In this document: one piece after another, positions 32,236 to 50,707 of the stretch | Layout of the letters: each line of letters opens with the position of its first letter | How positions within the stretch are numbered: the stretch's first letter is position 1 | Source: Christiangramia sediminis | GTDB taxonomy: Bacteria > Bacteroidota > Bacteroidia > Flavobacteriales > Flavobacteriaceae | Assembly (NCBI RefSeq): GCF_020552705.1 | Contig: NZ_JAJBZG010000005.1 | Coordinates: forward strand, 806,001 to 870,000 | Length of the DNA stretch: 64,000 nucleotides | Reading direction: 5' to 3' | Made by a program: the position numbers and the translations under genes | The notes under the pieces: model-generated | Seen by the model: the letters and a program-made list of their open reading frames with translations, nothing else | The model's database searches: none | Told to the model about the DNA's origin: nothing

Positions 32236-33282
32236 TTAATCCTGCTCTTCTTCTACTTCCTCGTTTTGTAAGCTTTTTTTGGACTTAAGAAAGTATTTGG
32301 GGCTTACACCGTATTTCTCCTTAAAGATCTTCGAGAAATAACTTCTATTATTAAGACCGATAGAAGTTACAATTTCTGAAATATTCTTTTCCGAAAGTTT
32401 GAGCATATCTTTTGCAGCTTCCAGCTTAACATGCTGCATATATTTATTTACAGTAAGATTATAAACATATTTGAAACCTTCCTGAAGCTTATTAACATTG
32501 GTTCCCGCCTCTTTGGCCAGTGTTTCTACGGTAAGGTTAGTACTAAGATCTCCCTGAATTCTTTTGGCTACATAATCTACCTTTTCAATATCAGACTTTC
32601 TTAAGATCTGCGGTAGATTTTCCCCATTTTCATCATCCTCATACTGTGCGATCTGGATCACCAGCATTTCAAATGCTTTACCTTCGAGGAAAAGATTACG
32701 AAGAAAACCGGTGTAATCTTTTGTATTAATGTCTTCCATAAGATCTGCAGCCTTTATACTGTAATTCCCCTGATAGAAGAATTGCTTTTTCGAGACGGCA
32801 TCTTTAAAGAGTTCCTTTAAAGTTGGATCAAGATCTTTAAAATCATAGTTAGATCTATGTGCAAAATTTGATCTGATTATCTCCAGGCTGGAAACGTGGG
32901 TGGGGACATCTTCTTTGAAATGTAGAATATGCCCGTCATATCCATTGCTGCTTACTACTATATTCTGGTAGGTGTCAATATTATGGATCTTCTCTTTATT
33001 TTGAAAACAATGGCCTACGCTCCCTTCCGAACAAAAAATAAATTTAAGTGGATGCACAGTATTAAGTGAAAAATGTATCTCTACATCCTGAAAGAATTTA
33101 CAATTATAACTGACATATCCCATGCCGGAATCAAAACTAATCCCTCTTATATAACCTTCTCCAATTTCTGCCGGGATCTCTACAGTAAGTTCACCACTAT
33201 TATTTTTCAGCTCAGTATTTAAGGAATTGGAAATGTCACCTAAGATTTCATTAACCGGTAATGTTTTTACATCAATTCTCAT
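32236..33282 (-). CDS. AraC-family transcriptional regulator
   Basis: 348-residue regulator. Residues about 250-335 form the double helix-turn-helix of AraC/XylS proteins (LTVETLAKEAGTNVNKLQEGFKYV, then ISEIVTSIGLNNRSYFSKIFKEKYGVSPKYF). The N-terminal 230 residues are a sensor region (cupin-like strands around residues 40-120, then helices) of no family I can name. The tail is acidic. It lies between groEL and the arsenosugar block, on the opposite strand and facing away from the latter, so it could control either side; no operator is evident. Confidence 0.88.
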   Translation of the reverse strand: MRIDVKTLPVNEILGDISNSLNTELKNNSGELTVEIPAEIGEGYIRGISFDSGMGYVSYNCKFFQDVEIHFSLNTVHPLKFIFCSEGSVGHCFQNKEKIHNIDTYQNIVVSSNGYDGHILHFKEDVPTHVSSLEIIRSNFAHRSNYDFKDLDPTLKELFKDAVSKKQFFYQGNYSIKAADLMEDINTKDYTGFLRNLFLEGKAFEMLVIQIAQYEDDENGENLPQILRKSDIEKVDYVAKRIQGDLSTNLTVETLAKEAGTNVNKLQEGFKYVYNLTVNKYMQHVKLEAAKDMLKLSEKNISEIVTSIGLNNRSYFSKIFKEKYGVSPKYFLKSKKSLQNEEVEEEQD

Positions 33283-33558
33283 TTGTGAATTTTGAACAAT
33301 TAAAAATCGCTTAAAGTTAAGTGATTTTTAACAAATATTTTTAAAATAATTGGCACGCAAAATTAGCATTTGTATGAAAAATTTAAGGATCTTTTTTGAA
33401 CTTATCATTCTTTAAGGTAATTCTAGTGGGAAAAACGTTAGGCAGAGGCTCAGAATTTCCTCTTTCAAAGAGATTTGAAGTTTTTTGCGGTGTTCAAAAT
33501 ATTTGTTAAAACTTTTTATAGCAAAATTTATGGCTGTAATTTCAGTAAAAACAATATT

Positions 33559-33741
33559 ATGAGTGCAGATAAAGATAGATCATCGCCGGTTCCTACTGAC
33601 CATAAAAAATCTGAACAAGGCGTAAATCAGTCCACAGAGACAAGAACTAAAAACTCGAGTTCGAAATTATGGGTTGTTATACTACTTGCTATCGTTTTTT
33701 TGCTTATTATTCTCGCCGTTACCGGTGTAGTAGATCTTTAA
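33559..33741 (+). CDS. Small single-helix membrane protein, unknown
   Basis: 60 residues from ATG 33559: a polar, Ser/Thr/Lys-rich N-terminus (MSADKDRSSPVPTDHKKSEQ) and one C-terminal transmembrane helix (KLWVVILLAIVFLLIILAVTGVV). The frame is open to 33475, but the upstream part is not protein-like. It looks tail-anchored, with the polar part in the cytoplasm. No family recognised. It stands 57 bases before the AhpD-like gene and may share its promoter. Confidence 0.5.
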   Translation: MSADKDRSSPVPTDHKKSEQGVNQSTETRTKNSSSKLWVVILLAIVFLLIILAVTGVVDL

Positions 33742-33798: not shown

Positions 33799-34134
33799 AT
33801 GTCAAAAAATTATTATGATCCGGCCGACTTAAGAAAATTTGGCGAAATAACAGAATGGAGTGAAGATCTAGGAAACAAATTCTTTGATTATTACGGAAAG
33901 GTCTTTGAAGAAGGTGCGCTTTCTGCCAGGGAGAAATCTCTTATTGCCCTTGCTGTTGCTCATGTGGTTAAATGTCCGTATTGCATAGATGCTTATACTA
34001 AAGATGGTTTGCAAAGAGGAATAACTAAAGAGGAGATGATGGAAGCTGTTCATGCCGGAGCCGCCATAGAAAGTGGAGCTACTTTAGTTCACGGCGTTCA
34101 AATGATGAATAAATACAAAAAGCTTAGCATGTAA
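33799..34134 (+). CDS. AhpD/carboxymuconolactone decarboxylase-like protein of the arsenosugar cluster
   Basis: 111-residue all-helical protein of the CMD/AhpD fold with the redox CxxC plus histidine signature HVVKCPYCIDAYT (Cys60, Cys63) and the following EMMEAVHAGAAIESGA. It is the small peroxidase-like protein commonly found beside ArsS genes. Possible roles are thiol/disulfide exchange keeping arsenic trivalent, or peroxide removal around the radical SAM enzyme; neither is proven. It opens the operon, 49 bases before arsS. Confidence 0.88.
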   Translation: MSKNYYDPADLRKFGEITEWSEDLGNKFFDYYGKVFEEGALSAREKSLIALAVAHVVKCPYCIDAYTKDGLQRGITKEEMMEAVHAGAAIESGATLVHGVQMMNKYKKLSM

Positions 34135-34183
34135 GTAATGTCAGATAATCTGAACTAAACTTAATAAGCAAGAAATACTCTTT

Positions 34184-35239
34184 ATGTTAACTAAGTCCCT
34201 AAAAGCAAGAAAGGATGACCTTTCAAGCCCTGCAAATCAATTAAAATTTTTAAGTAACGGAATCTTTAAAGAAGGTGAACTTCCTCGCTTTAAAGATAAA
34301 ATTGCTGAAACGGGAAAATTTCCCCTTAAGCCCAATAAATTAGAAATTCTCCAGTTAAACCTTGGTTATATGTGTAACCAGGTTTGCTCCCACTGTCATG
34401 TAGATGCAGGCCCAGATAGAAAAGAGATCATGACTAAAGAGACCATGCAACAATGTCTCGAGGTTATTAAAACTACAGGGGCACATACGTTAGACCTTAC
34501 CGGTGGAGCACCGGAGATGAATCCTAATTTCAGGTGGTTCGTAGAAGAAGCTTCAAAAGCGGGTATTAAAGATTTTATTGTAAGATCGAACCTGACCATT
34601 ATTCTTGCGAATAAAAAGTATCACGACCTTCCGGAATTTTTCAAAAAGCATAATGTTCATATAGCTTCTTCTCTTCCATTTTATAAAAGAGAAAAAACAG
34701 ATAAACAGCGTGGAAGCGGAGTTTTTGATAAATCTATCAAAGCTTTACAGATGCTGAATGCAGTTGGTTATGCCCAGGAAGGAACAGGTCTCAAGTTAGA
34801 TTTAGTTTATAATCCTTCAGGTGCTTTTCTTCCAACAGATCAGGCAGCTATGGAACATGATTTTAAAGTTGCTTTGAAAGAGGATTTCGATATAGATTTT
34901 AATAATCTTTTCGCTATTACCAATTTACCTATAAGCCGTTTTCTGGAATATTTAATAGCCTCAGAAAACTACGAGGATTATATGTACGCTTTAGTTGAAG
35001 CATACAATCCAGCTGCTTTAGATAACGTAATGTGTACCAATACTATTTCGATTAGCTGGGACGGCTGGTTATATGATTGCGATTTCAATCAAATGCTTGA
35101 ACTGAAAGTAGACAGTAAAGTGCAACATATTAGTGAGTATAACGAAGATCTGCTAAACGATAGAAATATTATAATTTCCCAGCATTGCTATGGCTGTACC
35201 GCCGGTGCCGGGAGCAGTTGCCAGGGAACGGTCACATAA
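34184..35239 (+). CDS. arsS: Arsenosugar-type radical SAM protein ArsS
   Basis: 351-residue radical SAM enzyme (TIGR04167-like). The cluster motif is Cys64, Cys68, Cys71 (GYMCNQVCSHCHVDAG), followed by LDLTGGAPEMNPNF. The C-terminal third holds a cysteine-rich region (DNVMCTNT, YDCDF, QHCYGCTAGAGSSCQG), fitting extra metal or arsenic ligands. ArsS of cyanobacteria joins a 5'-deoxyadenosyl group to dimethylarsenic, the first committed step to arsenosugars. Relatives in some bacteria use selenocysteine near the C-terminus; here all such sites are cysteine. The neighbours (ArsM, nucleoside phosphorylase, TIGR04282/04283) fit this pathway. Confidence 0.9.
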   Translation: MLTKSLKARKDDLSSPANQLKFLSNGIFKEGELPRFKDKIAETGKFPLKPNKLEILQLNLGYMCNQVCSHCHVDAGPDRKEIMTKETMQQCLEVIKTTGAHTLDLTGGAPEMNPNFRWFVEEASKAGIKDFIVRSNLTIILANKKYHDLPEFFKKHNVHIASSLPFYKREKTDKQRGSGVFDKSIKALQMLNAVGYAQEGTGLKLDLVYNPSGAFLPTDQAAMEHDFKVALKEDFDIDFNNLFAITNLPISRFLEYLIASENYEDYMYALVEAYNPAALDNVMCTNTISISWDGWLYDCDFNQMLELKVDSKVQHISEYNEDLLNDRNIIISQHCYGCTAGAGSSCQGTVT

Positions 35240-35250
35240 TTACTATATTT

Positions 35251-35739
35251 TTGAAAAAGCACTTTCTTATATTATTGATCTTTTGCGGGTATTTAAATGC
35301 GCAGGAATCAATGAATTCTCTTCTTAATAAATATAATTCGGGCGATGTTCCTTATATATCAGTTCAGGAATTGAGAATGCACCAGTTAGATGAGGAAGTA
35401 GTTATTCTTGATTCCCGTAATAGTGAGGAGTTTCAGGTAAGCCACCTTAAAAACTCGGTTTTTGTAGGCTATGATAATTTTGATATTTCCAGTTTAAAAT
35501 CTATACGAAAAGATCAGAAAATAGTGGTTTACTGTTCCGTTGGAATTCGGTCTGAAAATATTGCAGATAAAATCATTACTGCTGGATTTACTAATGTTCA
35601 GAATCTTTATGGGGGTATTTTCAAATGGAAAAATGAAGGTTTTCCTGTGGTAGATTTAAAAGGAATAGAGACCGAAAAAGTTCATGTTTTCTCAAAACAC
35701 TGGGCGAAGTATCTTAATAAAGGCGAAAAAATATATTAA
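35251..35739 (+). CDS. Exported rhodanese-like protein in the arsenosugar operon
   Basis: 162 residues with a signal peptide (MKKHFLILLIFCGYLNAQ) and a single rhodanese domain. The active-site loop is YCSVGIRS with the catalytic cysteine, and the fold is marked by VVILDSRNSEEFQVSHLKNS and LYGGIFKWKNEG. The start is TTG, 11 bases after arsS; the frame is open further upstream inside arsS, but only this start gives a signal peptide. It would act in the periplasm, with possible roles in sulfur transfer to, or thiolation of, exported arsenicals. The next gene's GTG follows the stop directly. Confidence 0.85.
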   Translation: MKKHFLILLIFCGYLNAQESMNSLLNKYNSGDVPYISVQELRMHQLDEEVVILDSRNSEEFQVSHLKNSVFVGYDNFDISSLKSIRKDQKIVVYCSVGIRSENIADKIITAGFTNVQNLYGGIFKWKNEGFPVVDLKGIETEKVHVFSKHWAKYLNKGEKIY

Positions 35740-36357
35740 GTGACTGAAAAAAATAAAGAAAATTTACTTCTCATATTTACGAAAAATCCGGTTGCCGGAA
35801 AAGTAAAGACCAGGTTGGCCAAAGACCTGGGAAATGAGAAGGCCTTGGAGATCTACAAGTTTTTATTAGATCATACTGCAAAATTTACTTCTTCCGTAAA
35901 TGCTACAAAGCAGGTTTATTATTCAGATTTCATTAATAAGGAGGATATTTGGGATAATCAGGTGTATGATAAAAGAAAGCAGTTTGGTGCCGATCTTGGT
36001 GAACGAATGCACAATGCTTTTGAAAACGGGTTTGACGAAGGTTTCGAGAAGGTCATCATCATAGGTAGCGATATGTTTGATATCGATTCTCAGGATATTG
36101 AGAAGGCTTTTAGCGAATTAGAAAATCATGAAGTTGTTGTTGGACCTGCTGAAGATGGAGGATATTATCTATTCGGAATGAAAGCCTTAAATTCGGACGT
36201 ATTTAAAAATAAAGAATGGGGAACTTCCAGTGTTTTGAAAGATACGTTGAAAGATCTTAAAAAAGAAGACGTTAAACTTCTGGAAACCCGGAACGATGTA
36301 GATTTGCTGGAGGATATAAAAGATCATCCTGCATTTCAAAAATTTATTAATATATGA
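35740..36357 (+). CDS. TIGR04282 (DUF2064) glycosyltransferase/nucleotidyltransferase-like protein
   Basis: 205-residue GT-A-fold protein. The N-terminal signature LLIFTKNPVAGKVKTRLAKDLG resembles the nucleotide-binding loop of CofC-type enzymes. Acidic motifs follow (VIIIGSDMFDID, VVGPAEDGGYYLFGM). The family is known as the transferase 1 that accompanies ArsS-type radical SAM proteins. GTG start directly after the rhodanese stop, and its end overlaps the next ATG by four bases. It may activate or transfer a sugar or polyol headgroup; the donor is unknown. Confidence 0.85.
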   Translation: MTEKNKENLLLIFTKNPVAGKVKTRLAKDLGNEKALEIYKFLLDHTAKFTSSVNATKQVYYSDFINKEDIWDNQVYDKRKQFGADLGERMHNAFENGFDEGFEKVIIIGSDMFDIDSQDIEKAFSELENHEVVVGPAEDGGYYLFGMKALNSDVFKNKEWGTSSVLKDTLKDLKKEDVKLLETRNDVDLLEDIKDHPAFQKFINI

Positions 36358-37166
36358 CAGATAAAGTTAGTGAAGCTGTAGCCTATCTTAAATCTAAAGG
36401 CTTTGGAGCACCGGAAGTAGGAATTATTCTGGGCACCGGTTTAGGAAAACTGATTGATGAGGTGGAGATAGAAATTGAAGCCAGCTATAATCATATTCCT
36501 AATTTCCCCACTGCGACAGTAGAATTCCATAAAGGGAAATTGATCTTCGGAACCCTCGAAGGAAAAAAAGTAATGATCATGCAGGGCAGGTTTCACCTTT
36601 ATGAAGGCTATAGCCTATTTGACATTACTTTTCCAGTAAGGGTGATGAAACGACTTGGGATGAAACGCCTGTTAGTTTCTAATGCCTCTGGTGCTGTAAA
36701 TCTTGATTTCAAAGAAGGAGAATTGATGTTGATCGATGACCATATTAATTTGCAAGGCGGCTCACCTTTGGCTTTTCACGGAGTAGAAAAATTAGGAGAA
36801 CGCTTTGTAGATATGAGCGAACCTTATGATTCTGGAATGAATAAAATATTTGAAGAGGCCGCAAGGACGAATAATATTACTCTTCATAAAGGTGTATATG
36901 CCTCAGTACTCGGTCCGCAACTGGAAACCAGGGCTGAATACAGATATTTAAAACTTATCGGTGCAGATGCCGTGGGAATGAGCACAGTTCCCGAAGTGAT
37001 TGTTGCTAATCATTTGGAAATTCCGGTGTCAGCAATTTCAGTGATCACAGATCAGGGTGATCCGGACAATCTTGAAAAGGTGAGTATTGAGAATATTCTT
37101 GCCAATGCGGCAAAAGCCGAACCCGACATGGTGAAATTATTTAAAGAATTACTTCAGAAGATATAA
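36354..37166 (+). CDS. Purine nucleoside phosphorylase (PNP-I)
   Basis: 270-residue trimeric-type phosphorylase: VGIILGTGLGKLIDEV (phosphate loop), MIMQGRFHLYEGY, SNASGAVN, GPQLETRAEYRYLKLIGADAVGMSTVPEV and the base-binding VISVITDQGD. In general salvage it splits inosine and guanosine. Inside this operon, coupled by four-base overlap to the TIGR04282 gene and one base before the ArsM-type gene, it more likely cleaves adenine from the 5'-arsinoyl-deoxyadenosine made by ArsS, giving an arsenic ribose 1-phosphate. That second role is inference from context. Confidence 0.92.
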   Translation: MTDKVSEAVAYLKSKGFGAPEVGIILGTGLGKLIDEVEIEIEASYNHIPNFPTATVEFHKGKLIFGTLEGKKVMIMQGRFHLYEGYSLFDITFPVRVMKRLGMKRLLVSNASGAVNLDFKEGELMLIDDHINLQGGSPLAFHGVEKLGERFVDMSEPYDSGMNKIFEEAARTNNITLHKGVYASVLGPQLETRAEYRYLKLIGADAVGMSTVPEVIVANHLEIPVSAISVITDQGDPDNLEKVSIENILANAAKAEPDMVKLFKELLQKI

Positions 37167-37167
37167 T

Positions 37168-38136
37168 ATGAGTTATTTAGAAACTACTAAAGATGTATAT
37201 AGAGACGCGGCATTGACTCCAGATGTGGGACTTTGTTGTACCACCAATCCTATTTGGGAATTACCAGGTTTGAAAATTCCAAAGATCATGCAGGAAATGA
37301 ACTATGGTTGTGGAACAACTGTTCATGCAAGAGATCTTACGAACGATCCCAGAATTCTTTATGTAGGTGTAGGAGGAGGAATGGAATTACTTCAATTCGC
37401 CTATTTCTCAAGACAAAAATCTGGTGTGGTAGGGATAGATGTAGTGGACGAAATGCTGGAAGCATCGAGGAAAAATTTCAAAGTTGCGGAAGAAATGAAT
37501 CCATGGTTTAAATCTGAATTTGTTGATCTTAAAAATGGAGATGCTACAGATCTTCCTGTGGAAGACAATTCTATTGATGTTGCTGCACAAAACTGTCTTT
37601 TCAATATTTTCAAAACAGAGGAATTAACTAAAGCTCTAAGGGAAATGTACAGGGTTTTAAAACCTCATGGAAAACTTGTAATGAGTGATCCTACCTGTGA
37701 GCAGGAAATGAATGATGAATTGAGAAATGATGAAAGGTTGCGTGCACTTTGTCTTAGCGGAAGTCTTTCTATTAAAGATTATGTAAAAGCATTAACTGAC
37801 GCAGGCTTTGGAACCATAGAAATAAGAGCCAGAAAACCTTACAGAATCCTGGATCCAAAAAACTATCCTACCGAAGAACTCGTATATATAGAATCTATTG
37901 AAGTTGCGGCCATTAAAGATCCTATGCCGGAAGATGGTCCATGTGTTTTTACAGGAAAAGCAGCCATATATTATGGCGATGGCGATCATTTTGATGATAA
38001 GAAAGGTCACGTTTTAATGAAAAACCAGCCTCTGGCGATCTGTGATAAAACAGCGAATGCTCTGGCTTCTTTAGGTAGAGATGATATATTTATTAGCGAG
38101 TCTACCTTCCATTATGATGGTGGAGGCTGCTGCTAA
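37168..38136 (+). CDS. arsM: Arsenosugar-cluster arsenite S-adenosylmethionine methyltransferase (ArsM type)
   Basis: 322-residue class I methyltransferase with the SAM loop LYVGVGGGMELLQF, the acidic end of strand 2 VVGIDVV, and motif DVAAQNCLFNIF. Candidate arsenic-binding cysteines are spread along it: Cys23/Cys24 (GLCCTTNP), Cys48 (NYGCGTT), Cys in PTCEQ, in ALCLSG, and a terminal pair in YDGGGCC. This fits the ArsM branch of arsenosugar clusters rather than the shorter detoxifying ArsM. It would make dimethylarsenic for ArsS. It lies one base after the phosphorylase stop. Confidence 0.87.
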   Translation: MSYLETTKDVYRDAALTPDVGLCCTTNPIWELPGLKIPKIMQEMNYGCGTTVHARDLTNDPRILYVGVGGGMELLQFAYFSRQKSGVVGIDVVDEMLEASRKNFKVAEEMNPWFKSEFVDLKNGDATDLPVEDNSIDVAAQNCLFNIFKTEELTKALREMYRVLKPHGKLVMSDPTCEQEMNDELRNDERLRALCLSGSLSIKDYVKALTDAGFGTIEIRARKPYRILDPKNYPTEELVYIESIEVAAIKDPMPEDGPCVFTGKAAIYYGDGDHFDDKKGHVLMKNQPLAICDKTANALASLGRDDIFISESTFHYDGGGCC

Positions 38137-38155
38137 AGTTTAAAAAATCCAAACT

Positions 38156-38947
38156 ATGAAAAAGTTCATTTTAAGTTTTGCAATAATATTTTCAGGAGCC
38201 TGTATGTTTGCTTCCTGTAATCTAATTTCCAGTGCTGGTCTTAATAGTAAAGGATTACCAACTCCTGATGCTTCTGCAGAAACTTCGTCAGACTCAGATC
38301 AAATGCTAGATCACAGTATCTGGAATTCCTTGCTAAAAAAGCATGTGAGTGAAAGTGGGATGGTAGATTATAAAGGGTTCAAAAGTGATCGCACAGAGCT
38401 GGACAAATATTTAAAAATGTTGTCTTCACAGGAACCTACAGAGGATTGGGGAACTAACGAACTCCTTGCTTATTATATCAATCTTTATAATGCCTATACG
38501 GTAGATCTTATTTTAAGAAATTACCCGGTAAAAAGTATCAAAGATATTGATGGTCCCTGGACCACTGAATTTGTAAAAGTTGGAGATACTGAAATTTCTC
38601 TAGGAGGAATTGAGAACAGCATCCTCAGAAAAATGAACGAACCAAGAATTCATTTTGCGATTAATTGTGCGTCAATATCCTGCCCTAAACTCTTGAATGA
38701 AGCATATACCTCCGGTATAATTGAAGAACAATTAGAAAGGGTAACCAAAGAATTCGTCAATTCAGATAAGAACGAGATATCTGCAAATTCTGCGAAACTT
38801 TCTTCGATATTCGACTGGTATAAGAAAGATTTCAAGGAAAATGGGACGGTTATAGATTATATAAATCAGTATTCTAGTACAAAGATAAATTCCGGAGCTT
38901 CGATCTCCTATAAGGATTACGATTGGAATTTAAATGAGAGCAAGTAA
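38156..38947 (+). CDS. DUF547 lipoprotein in the arsenosugar operon
   Basis: 263-residue protein with a lipoprotein signal (MKKFILSFAIIFSGACMF, lipobox FASC). Residues about 55-240 are a DUF547 domain: SIWNSLLKKHVSESGMVDYKGF, NELLAYYINLYNAYTVDLIL, IHFAINCASISCPKLLNEAY. The fold is thought to be transglutaminase/papain-like, but the catalytic status is unclear; the NCASISCP cysteines are the natural candidates. It lies 19 bases after arsM and six bases before the TIGR04283 gene, firmly inside the operon. Its presence implies part of the pathway acts at the periplasmic face. Confidence 0.85.
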   Translation: MKKFILSFAIIFSGACMFASCNLISSAGLNSKGLPTPDASAETSSDSDQMLDHSIWNSLLKKHVSESGMVDYKGFKSDRTELDKYLKMLSSQEPTEDWGTNELLAYYINLYNAYTVDLILRNYPVKSIKDIDGPWTTEFVKVGDTEISLGGIENSILRKMNEPRIHFAINCASISCPKLLNEAYTSGIIEEQLERVTKEFVNSDKNEISANSAKLSSIFDWYKKDFKENGTVIDYINQYSSTKINSGASISYKDYDWNLNESK

Positions 38948-38953
38948 TCTTTT

Positions 38954-39640
38954 ATGATTAGCATTATTATTCCGGCATATAATGAGGAGAAACAGCTTCC
39001 GGTGCTTTTAAAGCATCTGGAAGTATCTTCTTCCGGCGATATTTCCGAAATAATAATAGTAGATGGTGGAAGCACGGATAATACATCAAAAATTGCTAAA
39101 GATCATCCCAAAGTATTTTATGTACCTTCTGAAAAAGGACGTGCTGTTCAGATGAATACTGGCGCCAGATTAGCTAAAACAGAGATTCTCTATTTTTTAC
39201 ATGCCGATAGTTTTCCTCCCAAAAACTTTGATGCTCTTATTATTGACAAAGTCAACAATGGTGATAAAGCCGGATGTTTTCAAATGAAATTTGATAAAGA
39301 TCACTGGTGGCTCAATCTAATGGGGTTTTTTACAAAGATCAACCATATTTCCTGTCGTGGTGGAGACCAGTCTTTATTTGTAACCAAAGAACTTTTTAAT
39401 GAACTTGGCGGCTTTGATGAATCTTATCAGGTTTATGAAGACAACGAGTTTATAAAAAGAATTTATGAAAGTGGGAATTTCACGGTGATAAAAAGCTGGA
39501 TCACAACTTCAGCGCGACTCTACGAGAAAATGGGAATCTGGAATACACAATTGCTTTTTGCTGAAATTTACTGGAAGCGCAGGCTTGGAGCTTCTGCCGA
39601 TGAACTCTACAACCACTACTACAAGAGGATCAGTTCCTGA
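38954..39640 (+). CDS. TIGR04283 family-2 glycosyltransferase
   Basis: 228-residue GT-A enzyme: IIIPAYNEEKQLPVLLKHLE, IIIVDGGSTDNTSK, LFLHADSFPP-like metal-binding DxD equivalent (FLHADSF), RGGDQSLFVTKELF and YEDNEFIKRI. It belongs to the transferase 2 family that marks radical SAM/arsenosugar loci. It would add the headgroup or sugar to the arsenic ribose. It ends the operon; its last 11 bases overlap the convergent GH113-like gene. Confidence 0.88.
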   Translation: MISIIIPAYNEEKQLPVLLKHLEVSSSGDISEIIIVDGGSTDNTSKIAKDHPKVFYVPSEKGRAVQMNTGARLAKTEILYFLHADSFPPKNFDALIIDKVNNGDKAGCFQMKFDKDHWWLNLMGFFTKINHISCRGGDQSLFVTKELFNELGGFDESYQVYEDNEFIKRIYESGNFTVIKSWITTSARLYEKMGIWNTQLLFAEIYWKRRLGASADELYNHYYKRISS

Positions 39641-40655
39641 ATTTTCGGTAATATTCCTTTATCATATTCTCTGCAGGTTTATTCTGCGGGGTGAAACGAT
39701 CATTTTCCAATCCACCTGATCCTTCGTGTTGATCCCATTTCCAAAGATATCCACCGGCAAACCAGTTATTCGTCCAGAATTCTTCATATAAAATTTTAAG
39801 CGCTCTGGCTTGTAGATTATGGTTTGGTTCTGAAATATCTCTATTTGAATTCCAGGGTTCTTTTAATGCGTGATCCATGCTTCTATACCCATATTCAGTA
39901 AAAAGTATAGGTTTGTCATATTCTGAAGATAGGTCTTCCAGCATTGATTTATGTTTTTGCCAACCTTCAACAATCTCGTCTTCCGAAGGAGATACTTGAT
40001 CACTTAATGGGAAATAGGCATCAACACCAATAAAATCGATTTTATCCCAAATATCTACCTGATCAACTTTATCCCAGTTTTCAGCATACACAAGTTTCCC
40101 TTTGTAAATTTTTCTAATATCGCTGATCAATAAATTCCAGAATTCCGGTCTCTCTTTAACAAAATTGTAGAGTTCGGTACCAATACATAAGATCTCCAAA
40201 TGATGTTTCTCTGATAACTCCGCATATAACATCAAATACTTTCTATAAGAAGTCTCAAATTTTTCCCATTCAGCTTCAGAAGAAAATTTAAGGTCGCCGG
40301 TAAAATCCCCGTTTCTCAGCCAAATATGGGGCTTCATCATAATTCTTAAATTCTGACTTTTTAAGTGCATGATCGTATGCTCAATCCCTTCAAGCCTTTC
40401 TCCAAACCATTGCCTTTCGATATTATAGATAAGTTCTGGATCTGATTTTTCTCGCATAAAAGCATACGGCATAAGGGCAACGGAATTGGCATTTACTTCT
40501 ACAATCTTGCTAACCTGATCTTCAGTAATGCTATCGCGTGAGGCCACAAGGCTGATTCCATTTAATTTAAAATTTTCAGAGTTTGCGGCACAGGAATTCA
40601 GCAGGAAGAAGCTGAACATTATTAAGCATCCCTTATAAATTTGAATAAGCGTCAT
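39630..40655 (-). CDS. GH113-like glycoside hydrolase lipoprotein
   Basis: 341-residue lipoprotein (lipobox LNSC about residue 22) with a TIM-barrel. The carboxylates expected of a retaining clan A hydrolase are visible: acid/base Glu in CIGTELYNF and nucleophile Glu in ILFTEYGYRS. Other landmarks are MMKPHIWLRNGDF, FIGVDAYFPLS and GGYLWKWDQHEG near the end. The pattern is closest to GH113 (beta-mannanase type). It converges on the arsenosugar operon. It may act on a glycan at the cell surface; a link to arsenosugars is only positional. Confidence 0.7.
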   Translation of the reverse strand: MTLIQIYKGCLIMFSFFLLNSCAANSENFKLNGISLVASRDSITEDQVSKIVEVNANSVALMPYAFMREKSDPELIYNIERQWFGERLEGIEHTIMHLKSQNLRIMMKPHIWLRNGDFTGDLKFSSEAEWEKFETSYRKYLMLYAELSEKHHLEILCIGTELYNFVKERPEFWNLLISDIRKIYKGKLVYAENWDKVDQVDIWDKIDFIGVDAYFPLSDQVSPSEDEIVEGWQKHKSMLEDLSSEYDKPILFTEYGYRSMDHALKEPWNSNRDISEPNHNLQARALKILYEEFWTNNWFAGGYLWKWDQHEGSGGLENDRFTPQNKPAENMIKEYYRKFRN

Positions 40656-40758: not shown

Positions 40759-41688
40759 CTACTTTGATTTCTGATTTTTCAAAAGGCGACGTTGCTGCTG
40801 CTTCACCGTTAATGTACTGCCATCTGGACTCCAGCCAGGGGGTCCGAATACATACATGAACTTCTCTTTGAAACCCTTGGCATTCTTTACATCCCTCCAG
40901 ATATCTTTAAATTCATGGGTAAGAATGATCACCGGGTTATAGGAATTGGGAGAATGAGTAACGCCATACTTAGTTTCGATCTTAGTATCGAGCTCTTTCC
41001 AGGTGCCAAATAATCTATCGAAAATATTAAGAAAACCTCCATGGTTTTTATCCAGATATTCCACGTTCCGGGAATGATGAACCTGGTGCATCGTATGTGT
41101 ATTCAGAAATTTCTCCAGAAAACCAAGTTTAGGAATATACTGAGAATGCAGCTGGAATTGCCATAGGGATTCTATAGCCAGGCAAACCAGGATCATTTCA
41201 ACCGGAAAACCTACTGCCGGTAACCAGATGTAAAAAAAGGGTTTGTAGAAATGGGTGAACAATCCGTTTCTGATACCCGTTCCTAAATTAAAGTTATCTG
41301 AAGAGTGATGCACAATATAGGCTGCCCAAAAAAGCCTTATTTCATGGTTGGCTCTATGGTACCAGTAGTAAGCAAAATCGTCTCCCAGCATGCATAAAGC
41401 CCAGGCATACCATTCATATCCAAAAGATTTATACCCTAAAATATTAATATGTTCTCCATTAATAACCGGGTTGAAGATGGAATAAACCCCCTCAAATAAT
41501 AATATCATGAAAACCACCTTAAGCAAAGGGGATAAAATTGCCGTAGCTATTCCCATAGATCCGCTGGCCATGAAATCTTTCCAGGCATATAAATCATTAT
41601 GTTTGTTATGTTGGCTATAAGAAAACTCCAGTAATATTAATGCTATAAAGCAAGGAACTCCATAAACCAGGGGATCTGCAAAATCCAT
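40759..41688 (-). CDS. Fatty acid hydroxylase/sterol desaturase superfamily membrane protein
   Basis: 309-residue membrane di-iron enzyme. The histidine clusters are all visible: YYWYHRANHEIRLFW, AAYIVHHSSD and HTMHQVHHSRNVEYLDKNHGG. About four to five hydrophobic segments surround them (e.g. VPCFIALILLEF, GIATAILSPLLKVVFMILLF). Members hydroxylate or desaturate lipids or carotenoids using O2. The C-terminal third is soluble and basic. It lies upstream of, and on the same strand as, the GH113-like gene, 103 bases apart. The substrate is unknown; a membrane lipid is likely. Confidence 0.88.
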   Translation of the reverse strand: MDFADPLVYGVPCFIALILLEFSYSQHNKHNDLYAWKDFMASGSMGIATAILSPLLKVVFMILLFEGVYSIFNPVINGEHINILGYKSFGYEWYAWALCMLGDDFAYYWYHRANHEIRLFWAAYIVHHSSDNFNLGTGIRNGLFTHFYKPFFYIWLPAVGFPVEMILVCLAIESLWQFQLHSQYIPKLGFLEKFLNTHTMHQVHHSRNVEYLDKNHGGFLNIFDRLFGTWKELDTKIETKYGVTHSPNSYNPVIILTHEFKDIWRDVKNAKGFKEKFMYVFGPPGWSPDGSTLTVKQQQRRLLKNQKSK

Positions 41689-41940: not shown

Positions 41941-43227
41941 ATGGAGCATATTGTAATTATTGGAAACGGAATTTCTGGGATCACTGCGGCAAGGCATATT
42001 CGGAAATGTTCCGATCACAGGATCACCGTAATTTCAGGGGAATCAGATTACTTTTTTTCCCGTACAGCCTTGATGTATGTTTATATGGGTCATATGAAGT
42101 GGGATCATTTAAAACCATATGAAGACTGGTTCTGGGAGAAGAATAGAATTGAGCTGAAGAAAGCCTGGGTAGAAAAGATCAATTTCGAGAAAAAGGAATT
42201 GATATTTTCTTTGGGTGAGCCCTTGAAATACGATAAGCTGGTGATCGCAACTGGCTCTGTTTATAACAAATTTGGATGGGAAGGGCAGGATCTGAAAGGA
42301 GTCCAGGGCTTAGTTACAAAACAGGACCTTATTGAACTTGAAGAAAATACCGCACATACTAAAAAAGCGGTCATTGTGGGTGGTGGACTTATTGGCGTTG
42401 AGATGGCAGAAATGCTCAGAACACGAAAAATAGAAGTCACCTTCCTGGTAAGGGAGCAAGCGTTTTGGAATAATATTCTGCCGCTGCCGGAAGCTAAAAT
42501 GATCTCTAAACATATTCGATCTCACGGAGTAGACCTGAGGCATAATGTGGAGCCGGATAAGATTCTTTCAGACGAAAATGGAAGAGTTAAAGCAGTAACC
42601 ACAAAAGATGGAGAAGAGATAGAATGTCAATTAGTAGGCCTCTGCGCCGGGGTAAAACCGAATATAGATTTCCTTAAAGATTCAAACCTTGAGACTGATC
42701 GGGGAATTTTAGTGAACGAATATCTGGAAACCAATATCCCTGATGTTTATTCCATTGGAGATTGCGCCCAGCAAAGAACAGCCGTTGGTTTAAGAAATCC
42801 TGTGGAAGCCGTGTGGTATACCGGCAGGATCATGGGGGAAACACTGGCTCAAACACTTACCGGAACTCGAACGGCCTATCAACCCGGAAACTGGTTTAAC
42901 TCCGCAAAATTCTTTGATATAGAATATCAAACTTATGGCTGGGTGTGGCCAGTACCAAAAGCTAAAGAGCAGCATTTTCACTGGCAACATGAGTCCGGAT
43001 TAAAAGCTATAACTATTTCCTATAACTCTGAAAGCAGAGAGTTTTTAGGGATCAATACTTTCGGGATAAGAATGAGACAGGAAATATTTGACCTTTGGCT
43101 AAATGAAAATCGTAAAATAGATCATGTTCTTGCCAACCTGAAATTGGCGAATTTCGATCCGGAATTTTATGATCGTCACGAAAAAGAGATCTTTAAAAGT
43201 TTTAAAAATAACCTACAGGAAGCATAA
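41941..43227 (+). CDS. NAD(P)/FAD-dependent oxidoreductase (pyridine nucleotide-disulfide type)
   Basis: 428-residue flavoprotein with FAD-binding GxGxxG at the N-terminus (IVIIGNGISGITAARHI), the ATG motif (LVIATGSVYN), the NAD(P)H-binding GxGxxG (AVIVGGGLIGVEMAEML) and the second FAD motif VYSIGDCAQQ. Up to about residue 300 it resembles NADH-nitrite or rubredoxin reductases. The C-terminal 120 residues (YQPGNWFNSAKFFDIEYQTY) are specific. It starts a likely five-gene operon two bases before the membrane polyferredoxin, so it probably passes electrons from NAD(P)H to it. Confidence 0.9.
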   Translation: MEHIVIIGNGISGITAARHIRKCSDHRITVISGESDYFFSRTALMYVYMGHMKWDHLKPYEDWFWEKNRIELKKAWVEKINFEKKELIFSLGEPLKYDKLVIATGSVYNKFGWEGQDLKGVQGLVTKQDLIELEENTAHTKKAVIVGGGLIGVEMAEMLRTRKIEVTFLVREQAFWNNILPLPEAKMISKHIRSHGVDLRHNVEPDKILSDENGRVKAVTTKDGEEIECQLVGLCAGVKPNIDFLKDSNLETDRGILVNEYLETNIPDVYSIGDCAQQRTAVGLRNPVEAVWYTGRIMGETLAQTLTGTRTAYQPGNWFNSAKFFDIEYQTYGWVWPVPKAKEQHFHWQHESGLKAITISYNSESREFLGINTFGIRMRQEIFDLWLNENRKIDHVLANLKLANFDPEFYDRHEKEIFKSFKNNLQEA

Positions 43228-43229
43228 AA

Positions 43230-44825
43230 ATGAGCAGAATTGAACATAATATGTCGCTAACCGGAGACGCTCCAAAAGCGATCAATGCACAACAAAAGAT
43301 CGCGACCTTTTTAGGAATTTCCGGACTTTTTATTTTACTGCTGGCTTCTTTTAATATTAATTTTCCAAACAAAAGCCTTTGGTTAAGTATATCACTCATC
43401 TCCATTTTCGCAGGAATCGTTTGGTTTGCCAGGGCTTCTTACTCAGATAAACATCCCGGAATTAAAAATGACGGGGTTTGGTTCAAATCCATGACCAGCA
43501 GAGGTTATCTAGCCTGGCTCGCTGGTATTGCGCTTACTGGATTCTATGTTATACTTTATTTCTATCCGGAATATATAGGTTTAAGGGCTGAAGGTGCCAA
43601 CACAGGTTTAATTGCCCTCTTTGATCCCTTGAGTAAGTTGTTAAGTGGAAATCCCGCCAGTCAATGGTTCGTGTATGGCACCCTTTATACCATTGCGATC
43701 CTGGCCTTTGGAGTAAAGTTCCTCTGGAAATATCGCCATAATCGCTATGAGAAGATCAGGACATTTTCGGTGATGTTCTTTCAAACCGCTTTTGCTTTCC
43801 TTATTCCTGAATTTATGGCTCGTTTAAATGGGAAAGGCTTTTCACTTCCATATTATGATCTGAAAAATATATGGCCACTTAATTATTACAATTTTGAACA
43901 ATATCGTGTCGATGATTTTATTTCTTCCGGCACAATTGGGATTGCGTTATTGCTCTTCGGTATTGCTTCAATTTTTATAATTACCCCTATTTTAACTTAT
44001 AAATATGGTAAACGCTGGTATTGCAGCTGGGTTTGTGGTTGTGGCGGATTGGCAGAAACTGCCGGAGATCCTTACCGGCATTTATCTGACAAGAGTCAGT
44101 TTGCCTGGAAAGTGGAAAGATGGGTGGTGCATAGCGTATTGGTTTTCGTAGTCTTGATGACCACCGCGGTGATCTATTCTTATTTAGGTGAAGATGCTTC
44201 CAAATACTGGTTGACCAGGGATGTTTTTCTTATTGGAGTTGGGGTGTTTCTAAGCTTACTTTTTGCCGGGATCTGGTATTTTAAAAGAGAAGAGCTTGAA
44301 AAAGATGCCAGGTATGGCGCCATTGGTTATTTGGTGATTACCCTGTCTTTGATCGGGTTTCATTATATGAGTGGTAGTAATCTTTTCCTTTTTAATGCTG
44401 AAACTTTGCGTGCTTCATATGGATTTTTGATCGGAGCTATATTTAGTGGAGTAATAGGAACTGGTTTTTATCCCATTTTCGGAAATAGAGTTTGGTGTAG
44501 ATTTGGCTGCCCAATGGCGGCCATTCTTGGAATGCAGCAAAGATTGTTCTCTAAATTCAGAATTACCACTAATGGCGGACAATGTATTTCCTGCGGAAAT
44601 TGTTCTACCTATTGTGAAATGGGAATCGATGTAAGAGCCTATGCTCAGAAAGGTCAGAACATCGTTAGATCAAGTTGTGTGGGCTGCGGAATTTGTTCAG
44701 CAGTTTGCCCAAGAGGAGTTTTAAAACTCGAAAATGGATCGCAAAAGAACAGGATAGATTCTGAAGATGCTATTCTGGGCGATAATGTAGATCTTCTGGA
44801 CCTGATCAACCAAAAGAGCAAATAA
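43230..44825 (+). CDS. Membrane polyferredoxin (NapH/NosR/FixG-like), 4Fe-4S
   Basis: 531-residue inner membrane protein with about eight to nine helices. Two membrane-facing CxxxC motifs are present (RWYCSWVCGCGG and VWCRFGCPMAA), followed by two 4Fe-4S sites in the soluble tail (CISCGNCSTYCEMG and CVGCGICSAVCPRG). This is the plan of NapH/NosR/RdxA electron carriers. It is paired with the upstream flavoprotein (two-base gap). It may feed electrons across the membrane to a periplasmic or lipid-modifying enzyme; the acceptor is not evident. Confidence 0.88.
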   Translation: MSRIEHNMSLTGDAPKAINAQQKIATFLGISGLFILLLASFNINFPNKSLWLSISLISIFAGIVWFARASYSDKHPGIKNDGVWFKSMTSRGYLAWLAGIALTGFYVILYFYPEYIGLRAEGANTGLIALFDPLSKLLSGNPASQWFVYGTLYTIAILAFGVKFLWKYRHNRYEKIRTFSVMFFQTAFAFLIPEFMARLNGKGFSLPYYDLKNIWPLNYYNFEQYRVDDFISSGTIGIALLLFGIASIFIITPILTYKYGKRWYCSWVCGCGGLAETAGDPYRHLSDKSQFAWKVERWVVHSVLVFVVLMTTAVIYSYLGEDASKYWLTRDVFLIGVGVFLSLLFAGIWYFKREELEKDARYGAIGYLVITLSLIGFHYMSGSNLFLFNAETLRASYGFLIGAIFSGVIGTGFYPIFGNRVWCRFGCPMAAILGMQQRLFSKFRITTNGGQCISCGNCSTYCEMGIDVRAYAQKGQNIVRSSCVGCGICSAVCPRGVLKLENGSQKNRIDSEDAILGDNVDLLDLINQKSK

Positions 44826-44874
44826 ATTGTAAGGAAATAGCTTATTTTCGCACTTCCTATTTAAATTCTGAATT

Positions 44875-45579
44875 TTGCATACCCCAGTGCCACCTGTGAT
44901 CAAGGTAATTATTCCTGCATTTAATGAAGCCGATTCGATTTCTCATGTGATCGGTGATATTCCAGATTTTGTGGGTGAGGTGATCGTGGTAAGCAATAAT
45001 TCAACCGATGATACGGAGCAAAATGCCAAAAATGCCGGTGCTACGGTGCTTTCTGAAACCCAAAAAGGATATGGTTATGCCTGCTTAAAGGGCATGGACT
45101 ATATCGCTAAACAGGATCAAAAACCTGATATTATTGTATTTCTTGATGGAGATTATTCAGATTATCCTGAAGAGATGCCTAAGATCCTGGATCCAATTAT
45201 AAAAGAAAATAAAGATTTTGTAGTTGGAGCAAGAGTTAGTAAGTGGAGAGAAAAAGGTTCCATGACCTTTCCGCAGAGATTCGGAAACAAACTGGCCACT
45301 ACATTGATGAAATTACTCTTCAATTCCAGGTATACAGATCTGGGTCCTTTTAGAGCTATTAAGTATGAAAAATTACTACAGCTGGAAATGCAGGACAAAA
45401 CTTATGGCTGGACGGTTGAAATGCAGTTAAAGGCTTTACGACAAAACTTAAGTTATGCTGAGGTGCCGGTACATTACAAAAACAGGATTGGCGTGTCAAA
45501 AGTTTCAGGAACAATCAAAGGTGCTATCTTTGCAGGCGTGAAGATTCTTGGTTGGATTTTTAAATATAGTTTTAAATGA
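44875..45579 (+). CDS. Family-2 glycosyltransferase, dolichyl/polyprenyl-phosphate sugar synthase-like
   Basis: About 234 residues, GT-A fold: VIIPAFNEADSISHVI, VIVVSNNSTDDTEQNA, IVFLDGDYSDYPEE (metal-binding acidic motif) and GWTVEMQLKALRQ. This resembles DPM1-type enzymes that make polyprenyl-phosphate mannose or glucose. The start is uncertain: TTG 44875, or GTG codons 44887/44896. It overlaps the next glycosyltransferase by four bases (ATGA). Confidence 0.82.
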   Translation: MHTPVPPVIKVIIPAFNEADSISHVIGDIPDFVGEVIVVSNNSTDDTEQNAKNAGATVLSETQKGYGYACLKGMDYIAKQDQKPDIIVFLDGDYSDYPEEMPKILDPIIKENKDFVVGARVSKWREKGSMTFPQRFGNKLATTLMKLLFNSRYTDLGPFRAIKYEKLLQLEMQDKTYGWTVEMQLKALRQNLSYAEVPVHYKNRIGVSKVSGTIKGAIFAGVKILGWIFKYSFK

Positions 45580-47042
45580 TAGATTTAGCGGTAATCATAC
45601 TTTATACTCTAGCCTTACTCGTTATATTCATTTACAGCCTTTCCCAGCTACATTTACTGATCAATTATTTAAGGGCGACCAAAAATACTGACGATGCGGA
45701 AAAATTTGATTTTTCGATTCATCAGTTGCCCTTTGTTACTATTCAGCTTCCACTTTACAATGAATATTACGTGGTGGAAAGACTCCTGAAAAATATAGGA
45801 AAGATCAACTATCCAAAAGACAAACTGGAAATACAGGTGCTGGATGATTCTACAGATCATTCAGTTGAAAAAACGTCAGAGATTATCAGGGAGCTTCAAA
45901 ACTCGGGACTTGATATCCAGCATATAAGAAGAGAAAATAGAACCGGGTTTAAAGCCGGAGCTTTAAAAGAAGGTTTGAAAATAGCCAAAGGTGAATTTGT
46001 AGCTGTTTTCGATTCAGATTTTGTTCCCGGGAAGAACTGGTTAATGCAAACGCTGCCTTATTTCAAGAATCCGAAAATAGGAGTGGTACAAACCCGCTGG
46101 GGTCATCTTAACCGTAACTATTCACTACTTACCAAAATTCAGGCATTTGCACTTGATTTTCATTTTATCCTGGAACAGACCGGAAGGAATTTCGGTCGGA
46201 ATTTTATCAATTTCAATGGGACAGCAGGGATCTGGCGAAAAGAATGTATCCTCGATGCCGGGAACTGGAGTGGAGATACGTTAACTGAAGATCTTGACCT
46301 TAGTTATCGGGCCCAGATGAAAAACTGGGAATTCAAATATCTGGAGAATGTGGAAACTCCCGCTGAACTACCAGTTGTAATAAGCGCTGCAAGGAGTCAG
46401 CAGTTTCGATGGAATAAGGGAGCGGCGGAGAATTTCAGAAAGAATTACGGAAAACTATTTAGAGACAGGTCAGTTTCATTTAGTACAAAATTCCATGGTT
46501 TTTTTCATTTGTTGAATTCCAGTATGTTTTTGATCGTACTCTTACTGGCAGTGCTAAGTGTTCCTGTTTTATATATTAAAAATAATAATCCGGCATTTTC
46601 ATGGTATTTTAATGTGCTTGCTGGTTTTGCAATAAGTACCTTGATCTTCTTTGCCTGTTATTATGTGGCTTATGCGAAGATCCACGGGAAAGGAATTAAA
46701 AGCTTTTTCAAATTTGTAGGAATGTTCATCACTTTCTTTTCTATTGCGATGGGTTTTTCAGTTCATAATACTCTCGCCGTATTAGAAGGTCATTTTGGAA
46801 AGAAATCTGAATTTATCAGGACGCCAAAATTTAATATTAGTTCGATCAAGGATTCCTGGAAAGGGAATAGTTACTTGACCAATCGTTTTTCAAAAAATGT
46901 GATCATTGAAGGGCTTTTGTTCCTTTATTTTGGTTTTGCCATCTGGAGTGCTTTCCAACTAAATGATTTCGGTCTGTTAATCTTTCATTTAATGCTGTTC
47001 ACGGGATTCGGCTTTGTTTTCTTTAAAAGTCTGAGAGCATAA
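45576..47042 (+). CDS. Membrane family-2 glycosyltransferase, cellulose synthase-like
   Basis: 488-residue processive-type transferase. One N-terminal helix is followed by a cytosolic GT-A domain with the D,D,D,QxxRW signature: LDDSTDHSVEKT, VFDSDFVPGKNW, TEDLDLSYRAQM and QQFRWNKGAAENF. At least four C-terminal helices follow. The plan is that of CESA/CslA and hyaluronan-type synthases that polymerise and extrude a glycan. No PilZ or BcsB partner is seen. Translationally coupled to the upstream DPM1-like gene. Confidence 0.87.
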   Translation: MIDLAVIILYTLALLVIFIYSLSQLHLLINYLRATKNTDDAEKFDFSIHQLPFVTIQLPLYNEYYVVERLLKNIGKINYPKDKLEIQVLDDSTDHSVEKTSEIIRELQNSGLDIQHIRRENRTGFKAGALKEGLKIAKGEFVAVFDSDFVPGKNWLMQTLPYFKNPKIGVVQTRWGHLNRNYSLLTKIQAFALDFHFILEQTGRNFGRNFINFNGTAGIWRKECILDAGNWSGDTLTEDLDLSYRAQMKNWEFKYLENVETPAELPVVISAARSQQFRWNKGAAENFRKNYGKLFRDRSVSFSTKFHGFFHLLNSSMFLIVLLLAVLSVPVLYIKNNNPAFSWYFNVLAGFAISTLIFFACYYVAYAKIHGKGIKSFFKFVGMFITFFSIAMGFSVHNTLAVLEGHFGKKSEFIRTPKFNISSIKDSWKGNSYLTNRFSKNVIIEGLLFLYFGFAIWSAFQLNDFGLLIFHLMLFTGFGFVFFKSLRA

Positions 47043-49735: not shown

Positions 49736-50707
49736 TTACATATCCAGCAGATATGCAAAAACAAGGGGGGCAACTATGGTTGCGTCACTTTCAATAATAT
49801 GCTTGGGAGTATTAATATCTAATTTACCCCAGGTGATCTTTTCGTTAGGAACTGCTCCCGAATATGAGCCATAACTGGTAGTTGAATCTGAAATCTGGCA
49901 GAAGTAACTCCAGAAAGGAGTGTCTGTTCTTTCCATGTCCTGATACAACATTGGTACCACGCAAATTGGGAAATCACCGGCAATACCTCCACCAATCTGG
50001 AAGAATCCAATTCCATCCTTAGAATTTTCAGTATACCAGTCGGCAAGGAACGTCATGTATTCAATTCCAGACTTCATCGTACTGGCTTTCAATTCACCTT
50101 TCATTACATAAGAGGCGAAAATATTTCCAAGTGTAGAATCTTCCCATCCAGGAACCACCATGGGTAGGTTCTTTTCGGCTGCCGCATACATCCATGAATC
50201 CTTTAGGTCTATCTCGTAATGCTCTTCCATCACTCCGCTTAATAAAAGCTTATGCAGGAATTCATGCGGGAAATAACGTTCTCCTTTGTCTTCAGCATCT
50301 TTCCAGATCTTGAAAATATGCTCCTGAATTCTTCTAAAAGCTTCTTCTTCGGGAATACAGGTATCGGTTACCCGGTTCAGTCCTTTTTCCAATAGGTCCC
50401 ATTCATCCTGCGGAGTAAGATCGCGGTAATTAGGAACTCTTTTATAATGTGAGTGTGCTACGAGGTTCATCACATCTTCTTCCAGGTTTGCCCCGGTACA
50501 GGAGATGATATGGACTTTATCCTGACGGATCATTTCAGCAAATATCTTCCCGATCTCTGCAGTACTCATCGCACCGGCGAGGGAGACCAGCATTTTAGAT
50601 CCGTTCTCTAATTGTTTTTCATAATCTTTTGCAGCATCAACAAGTGCAGCTGCATTAAAATGTAAATAATACTTTTCAATAAATTGTGATATCTGTCCTT
50701 TACTCAT
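49736..50707 (-). CDS. Deoxyhypusine synthase-like protein lacking the catalytic lysine
   Basis: 323-residue NAD-dependent polyamine enzyme family member (deoxyhypusine or homospermidine synthase-like). Recognisable parts: SLAGAMSTAEIGKIFAEM, ISCTGANLEEDVMNLVAHS, the VVPGWEDSTLGN segment and the C-terminal WGKLDINT...ESDATIVAPLVF. In eukaryotic enzymes the catalytic lysine lies in GGGVVKHH; here that stretch reads GGGIAGDFP (from residue 239), so Gly244 stands in its place. It overlaps agmatinase by eight bases as the third gene of speA-speB-dhs. Bacteria lack eIF5A, so the acceptor is not hypusine; the product could be a polyamine or something else. Confidence 0.85.
   Translation of the reverse strand: MSKGQISQFIEKYYLHFNAAALVDAAKDYEKQLENGSKMLVSLAGAMSTAEIGKIFAEMIRQDKVHIISCTGANLEEDVMNLVAHSHYKRVPNYRDLTPQDEWDLLEKGLNRVTDTCIPEEEAFRRIQEHIFKIWKDAEDKGERYFPHEFLHKLLLSGVMEEHYEIDLKDSWMYAAAEKNLPMVVPGWEDSTLGNIFASYVMKGELKASTMKSGIEYMTFLADWYTENSKDGIGFFQIGGGIAGDFPICVVPMLYQDMERTDTPFWSYFCQISDSTTSYGSYSGAVPNEKITWGKLDINTPKHIIESDATIVAPLVFAYLLDM

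Follow-up and report, generated by a model that had tools for sequence, protein, structure and literature searches.

Seaweed arsenic is described as consisting mainly of arsenosugars (excerpt of PMC5478658), and in the sections seen of PMC8552651 and PMC12159101 genes are assigned only for the first two enzymatic steps of arsenosugar synthesis. In Synechocystis the pathway begins with ArsS and ArsM working together (Xue 2019, cited in PMC8552651), and a radical S-adenosylmethionine (SAM) enzyme is described as adenosylating arsenic (PMC12159101). Among listings and selected passages of the openly licensed PMC literature no paper assigning the downstream enzymes was found, a weak absence since most subscription journals lie outside it. 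Here we explore an eight-gene operon at positions 33799 to 39640 of a 64,000-nucleotide stretch (the window) of the 3.25 Mb genome of Christiangramia sediminis. With a probability that we put at about one half, it encodes an arsenosugar route that runs from ArsM and ArsS through phosphorolysis and nucleotidyl activation to transfer. Central to this route is a purine nucleoside phosphorylase (PNP) that probably works like a 5'-methylthioadenosine (MTA) phosphorylase (MTAP), here cleaving dimethylarsinoyl-adenosine, because it has Asp and Ile at its specificity positions and PNPs of the same class adjoin mtnA; its place in the tree and its association with ArsS are also consistent with this function.

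All eight open reading frames (ORFs) of the compact run described by an earlier, sequence-only reading of this DNA are present on one strand, and the protein families that it listed were matched by profile scores above curated cut-offs. That ArsM, ArsS and the AhpD-like protein are of the arsenosugar type, as it proposed, is likewise supported by NCBIfam profiles. The genes are:

33799..34134, plus strand: AhpD-like CxxC protein, TIGR04169 "arsenosugar biosynthesis-associated peroxidase-like protein" (200 bits, cut-off 120)
34184..35239, plus strand: ArsS, radical SAM enzyme, TIGR04167 (440 bits, cut-off 300), with DUF3641 at the C-terminus
35251..35739, plus strand: rhodanese-domain protein, apparently exported, NF045521 "rhoda_near_glyco" (207 bits, cut-off 145)
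35740..36357, plus strand: TIGR04282/DUF2064 protein, predicted sugar-1-phosphate nucleotidyltransferase (215 bits, cut-off 134)
36354..37166, plus strand: trimeric-type PNP, predicted 5'-deoxy-5'-dimethylarsinoyl-adenosine phosphorylase, TIGR01697 (291 bits, cut-off 197) and NF006054 (340 bits, cut-off 218)
37168..38136, plus strand: arsenosugar-type arsenite methyltransferase ArsM, NF038099 (572 bits, cut-off 400)
38156..38947, plus strand: DUF547 protein with, by eye, an apparent signal peptide and lipobox, PF04784 (87.5 bits, cut-off 27)
38954..39640, plus strand: TIGR04283 protein, glycosyltransferase family 2 (GT2) type, predicted to carry out the final (arseno)ribosyl transfer (238 bits, cut-off 182)

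The genes nearly touch, and several junctions abut or overlap. Gaps in the 5' half measure 49 bp (AhpD-ArsS), 11 bp (ArsS-rhodanese, given a TTG start at 35251) and 0 bp (rhodanese-TIGR04282), those in the 3' half 1 bp (PNP-ArsM), 19 bp (ArsM-DUF547) and 6 bp (DUF547-TIGR04283), and the TIGR04282 and PNP genes overlap by 4 bp (ATGA). The longest rhodanese ORF begins at TTG 35185, inside arsS; TTG 35251 is the more likely start. Since five of the eight genes (TIGR04169, ArsS, TIGR04282, ArsM and TIGR04283) already carry NCBIfam arsenosugar names, the cluster type is already known, and the novelty lies in how the phosphorylase and TIGR04282 are read here. Besides its equivalog match, ArsS has the radical SAM motif CX3CX2C (C64/C68/C71, conserved in at least 97% of 81 sequences); a sequence search of the PDB returned no match for it at E 0.001, and its nearest named relatives among the matches listed are from Christiangramia (91-92% identical). 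The ArsM is of the arsenosugar type and is the sole NF038099 match over the cut-off in the window genome.

By profile the phosphorylase belongs to the trimeric PNPs and falls below the curated cut-off of the MTAP family TIGR01694 (99.3 against 274.85 bits). Trimeric PNPs specific for 6-oxopurines are marked by Asn243 and His257, which we take to be the human positions, placed here by motif in an alignment with solved bacterial PNPs. The operon protein has Asp233 and Ile245 instead:

37050..37052, plus strand: codon of Asp233, at human PNP Asn243, the base-specificity position by alignment to solved PNPs (Asp in 60 of 60)
37086..37088, plus strand: codon of Ile245, at human PNP His257, the 5'-OH ligand by alignment to solved PNPs (Ile in 59 of 60, Val in one)

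These counts come from a set of 81 ArsS loci, 80 fetched and the window, mostly from Flavobacteriaceae and several ending at contig edges. A full-length phosphorylase ORF of 270-289 amino acids is present in 60 of the 81, and tblastn places the gene in 62 of the 80 fetched loci; Leu190 and Glu191 are, like Asp233, present in all 60 ORFs. According to the portions seen of the papers cited, the Asn to Asp change in human PNP raises adenosine efficiency about 4,000-fold and opens the enzyme to adenosine (PMC6128611), PNP Glu201Gln:Asn243Asp cleaves adenosine prodrugs (PMC2799393), and His257 hydrogen-bonds the 5'-hydroxyl (PMC12648331). A hydrophobic residue at the His257 position would suit a substrate that lacks the 5'-hydroxyl and bears a nonpolar group there instead. 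Since none of the 60 ORFs keeps either specificity residue, a housekeeping inosine/guanosine PNP was rejected as its principal role. Genome G084 has, apart from its operon-type copy, a second copy of the FEDH type, as has G176, where the FEDH-type copy was read and the operon-type copy identified by score alone.

PNP residues were also read in a phylum sample of 148 Bacteroidota genomes, 58 with ArsS over the cut-off and 90 without. The reading covered all 58 ArsS-positive and 60 of the 90 ArsS-negative genomes, the 60 being taken from the highest-scoring rows first and hence non-random; partial duplicates L109 and L113 (no genome label) and rows L083-L085 were left out, and genome counts ignore phylogeny. 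Three main residue classes were found, LED followed by a hydrophobic residue (LED+hydrophobic), FEDH and YENH, plus two LEDH sequences and one LENV. The LED+hydrophobic class occurs in 58 of 58 ArsS-positive genomes. In a tree made by a quick method, with support by SH-aLRT only and with long-branch warnings, its members fall in one supported clade (98) that also holds the LEDH and LENV rows, a subclade (99) comprises 18 Flavobacteriaceae PNPs from ArsS-positive genomes, and the two copies of G084 fall in separate clades. A family sample with one genome per genus, 120 Flavobacteriaceae in all, contained 93 with ArsS and 27 without. Defined as scoring 300 bits or more against the window protein, a line checked on 20 sequences read (13 above it operon-type, 7 below it FEDH-type), an operon-type PNP is found in 92 of the 93 ArsS-positive against 11 of the 27 ArsS-negative genomes (Fisher p 6e-12, phylogeny ignored). 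Sixty-three of those 92 PNPs lie less than 5 kb from ArsS, 12 at 8.9-10.7 kb and 17 farther away or on another contig; the sole ArsS-positive genome without one, G204, has 7% contamination.

The link to MTA comes from mtnA. Among 53 genomes hand-picked from the 81 in which mtnA was matched, 29 have a PNP next to mtnA and on its strand, at 35-95 bp in 28 and at 937 bp in one (distances between profile-match ends). All but one of the 29 genomes belong to one family, f15, and the 20 of their PNPs that were read all have LEDI; the mtnA identity of one PNP neighbour was checked by profile (386 against 279 bits). Since PNPs adjoin mtnA in 29 of 53 genomes, the wider role of the LED+hydrophobic class is likely MTA phosphorolysis. 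Classical MTAP was considered and rejected, TIGR01694 being over its cut-off in none of the 148 genomes. Bacteroidota may use these mtnA-adjoining PNPs (L266 and 28 other genomes), of the Asp243/Ile257 class where read, in place of MTAP. No mtnA was found in the 15 Flavobacteriaceae genomes sampled, and none of the three PF01048 members of the window genome is over the cut-off for MTA nucleosidase; its other PF01048 proteins are of the DeoD type (357 against 230 bits) or nearest to uridine phosphorylase, below the cut-off (96 against 280 bits). The suggestion of the sequence-only reading that the phosphorylase removes the base has thus gained residue, tree and neighbourhood evidence, the activity being a predicted one.

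Gene order across the ArsS loci is not due to chance. TIGR04282 stands immediately 5' of the PNP gene in 49 of the 59 loci with both, overlapping it in 31, and DUF547 stands immediately 5' of TIGR04283 in all 31 loci with both. The most frequent order is AhpD-ArsS-rhodanese-TIGR04282-PNP-ArsM-(extra genes)-DUF547-TIGR04283, and in split clusters (L202, L203, L323) AhpD-ArsS is found at one site and rhodanese-TIGR04282-PNP-ArsM at another. Outside Flavobacteriaceae the TIGR04282-TIGR04283 pair often comes directly after ArsS.

The AlphaFold2 model of the TIGR04282 protein (pLDDT 95) has nucleotidyltransferases as its nearest solved folds, and weak sequence matches to CofC guanylyltransferase models accompany this fold, as for a CofC-like nucleotidyltransferase. 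Residues G20, K23, R25, L26, GSD109-111, GP135-136 and DGG139-141 are invariant in 38 sequences. It is not CofC itself, as it scores 33.6 bits against a cut-off of 105 with TIGR03552 (2-phospho-L-lactate guanylyltransferase). Because TIGR04282 models as a nucleotidyltransferase, it more likely activates a sugar-1-phosphate, which would leave a single glycosyltransferase in the operon and speaks against the two transferases that had been proposed to finish the headgroup. This remaining enzyme, the TIGR04283 protein, models (pLDDT 94.5) closest to GT-A glycosyltransferases that use nucleoside diphosphate (NDP) sugars, and its GT2 character appears both in PF00535 (80.7 against 23.3 bits) and in a Foldseek match to WrtF (E 1.4e-14). 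Together the two models suggest a conversion of arsenoribose-1-phosphate to NDP-arsenoribose and on to an acceptor. They also call into question the database name "arsenosugar biosynthesis glycosyltransferase", which seems wrong for TIGR04282 and too specific for TIGR04282 and TIGR04283 alike; a 2026 genome paper, in the part seen, lists arsenosugar formation from two genes so named (PMC13077682).

The proposed route would begin with ArsM methylating arsenite to dimethylarsenic, to which ArsS would add a 5'-deoxyadenosyl group to give 5'-deoxy-5'-dimethylarsinoyl-adenosine, both steps being published for cyanobacterial homologues. By its residues, tree position and context, the MTAP-like PNP would then exchange adenine for phosphate, yielding 5-deoxy-5-dimethylarsinoyl-ribose-1-phosphate, and TIGR04282, judging by its fold, would convert this to NDP-arsenoribose. 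TIGR04283 would finally move the arsenoribosyl unit to an acceptor, which, as a guess from arsenosugar structures and chemistry, might be glycerol or phosphatidylglycerol.

Several observations weigh against so close a tie to arsenic. The LED+hydrophobic class is also present in 43 of the 60 ArsS-negative genomes examined and hence is not arsenic-specific, so that an arsenic-specific PNP class across the phylum was rejected; some of the 17 genomes without it carry further PNP copies outside the set read. Of the 29 genomes with an mtnA-adjoining PNP, 16 have ArsS and 13 lack it, no PNP was found in 49 ArsS loci outside Flavobacteriaceae (about 8 kb on each side, some cut by contig ends), and six ArsS-less Flavobacteriaceae show an operon-type PNP with no cluster in the stretch taken. 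The enzyme could accordingly be a general phosphorylase for MTA and 5'-deoxyadenosine that disposes of what SAM enzymes leave behind, such as 5'-deoxyadenosine from abortive ArsS turnover, and would then stand off the arsenosugar path. The mtnA neighbours, the lack of TIGR01694 proteins and of an MTA nucleosidase noted above, the ArsS-less carriers of the class and the six solitary PNPs all favour such a role, yet in Flavobacteriaceae, where mtnA was absent from the genomes sampled, the PNP occurs mostly alongside ArsS, 16 of the 27 ArsS-less genomes have no operon-type PNP, and the PNP gene overlaps TIGR04282 in 31 of 49 adjacent pairs. On this balance we regard a purely general phosphorylase as rather unlikely.

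The later genes raise a similar question. With thresholds of E 1e-25 for TIGR04282 and E 1e-35 for TIGR04283 in the 148 genomes (89 of the 90 TIGR04282-positive genomes are also above the curated cut-off), TIGR04282 is found in 57 of 58 ArsS-positive against 33 of 90 ArsS-negative genomes (p 7e-16), and its exclusivity to ArsS genomes was rejected on the latter count. Both genes occur in 27 of the 90 ArsS-negative genomes, adjacent in 20, which weakens the notion of exclusivity to arsenic, and TIGR04283 is below threshold in 11 of the 58 ArsS-positive genomes, including the Flavobacteriaceae G029 and G088. In 13 of 16 fetched ArsS-less loci TIGR04282 lies near TIGR04283 with no ArsS within four ORFs on either side (judged by eight profiles), and in the remaining three (G106, G063, G020) both genes were placed by profile search alone. 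None of the 11 ArsS-negative Flavobacteriaceae with an operon-type PNP has an NF038099 ArsM over the cut-off, and five Flavobacteriaceae without ArsS or ArsM (L305, L306, L311, L314, L315) keep an apparently intact rhodanese-TIGR04282-PNP-(DUF547)-TIGR04283 cluster; ArsS-negative G142 keeps rhodanese-TIGR04282-DUF547-TIGR04283 with the PNP absent from the cluster. Because clusters and pairs persist in ArsS-less genomes, the later operon genes have some use without ArsS. They might form an arsenic-independent NDP-sugar and transferase pair that the ArsS operon has borrowed or that is merely co-regulated with it, which we find doubtful in view of the strong bias of TIGR04282 towards ArsS genomes and the frequent position of the pair directly after ArsS outside Flavobacteriaceae. 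That both are headgroup glycosyltransferases, as the sequence-only reading had it, is very improbable given the nucleotidyltransferase model. The claim that one operon contains the full route depends on TIGR04282 and TIGR04283 both taking the arsenic sugar as substrate.

TIGR04282 and TIGR04283 may together form a ribosyl-conjugation module of wider use, and the five clusters in genomes without ArsS or ArsM might be such a module free of arsenic genes. More speculatively, PNP, TIGR04282 and TIGR04283 could constitute a widespread unnamed route from 5'-deoxy-5'-substituted adenosines, or ribose-1-phosphates generally, to NDP-ribosyl donors and ribosyl conjugates. Supplied by ArsM and ArsS, this route would give arsenosugars, and in ArsS-less genomes that keep the pair or module it would give different ribosyl compounds; we consider this possible but improbable. 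In family f21 (L331-L333, L337-L339, L342, L343) the pair sits in a recurring ArsS-free neighbourhood, and six of these eight genomes have an unlinked protein of 320-370 amino acids with a weak ArsS-profile match (61-76 bits).

The AhpD-like, rhodanese and DUF547 proteins look accessory and might perhaps serve in the redox handling of thiols or arsenic and in delivery to the envelope. C59 and C62 of the AhpD-like protein are conserved in at least 97% of 77 sequences, the catalytic Cys of the rhodanese with CxxGxR in at least 97% of 52, and the rhodanese has a hydrophobic N-terminus, by eye an apparent signal peptide. This peptide and the DUF547 lipobox, likewise read by eye, are the whole basis for the suggestion of the sequence-only reading that part of the product may be exported or placed in the envelope. 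The genes around the operon are:

32236..33282, minus strand: AraC-type regulator (PF12833), upstream, a possible regulator
33475..33741, plus strand: small ORF immediately 5' of the operon, no NCBIfam or Pfam match, hydrophobic segment judged by eye
39630..40655, minus strand: glycoside hydrolase family 113 (GH113) type protein, convergent with the operon end, homologues in 21 of 81 ArsS loci
40759..41688, minus strand: fatty-acid-hydroxylase-family membrane protein (PF04116); what looks by eye like a relative (cluster FAH9) occurs in 19 of 81 ArsS loci
41941..47042, plus strand: pyridine-nucleotide-disulphide oxidoreductase, 4Fe-4S membrane protein and two GT2 proteins; for the first three, homologues occur in 15, 12 and 11 of 81 ArsS loci
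49736..50707, minus strand: deoxyhypusine-synthase-like protein (no family cut-off reached), next to ORFs that by eye resemble an agmatinase and a decarboxylase, possibly polyamine genes

Outside algae and cyanobacteria, in a member of the Bacteroidota, the operon supplies an ordered set of enzyme candidates for removing the base, activating the sugar and transferring it, and a candidate for the adenine-stripping step makes the second half of the arsenosugar pathway testable. With the cyanobacterial ArsM-ArsS pathway it shares the ArsS NCBIfam equivalog and an arsenosugar-type ArsM, so that the first two steps are presumably alike, but here a predicted MTA-type phosphorylase and a predicted nucleotidyltransferase lie in the same operon, as candidates for later steps. 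All five members of the NCBIfam arsenosugar set (TIGR04167, TIGR04169, TIGR04282, TIGR04283 and NF038099) are present, whereas the PNP and DUF547 proteins carry no arsenosugar label and TIGR04282 looks like a nucleotidyltransferase where its label says glycosyltransferase. As in the MTAP step of methionine salvage, the substrate predicted for the operon PNP is a 5'-deoxy-5'-substituted adenosine, split into adenine and a 5-substituted ribose-1-phosphate, and same-class relatives of the enzyme adjoin mtnA, but by sequence it is a trimeric PNP of TIGR01697 rather than a TIGR01694 protein, in a family where mtnA was found in 0 of 15 genomes. The TIGR04282 model, finally, shares its fold with CofC, Rv2983 and 3-phosphoglycerate guanylyltransferase at 14-18% identity in structure alignments, below the CofC cut-off, while 3cgx, a DUF2064 relative, reaches 30-32%.

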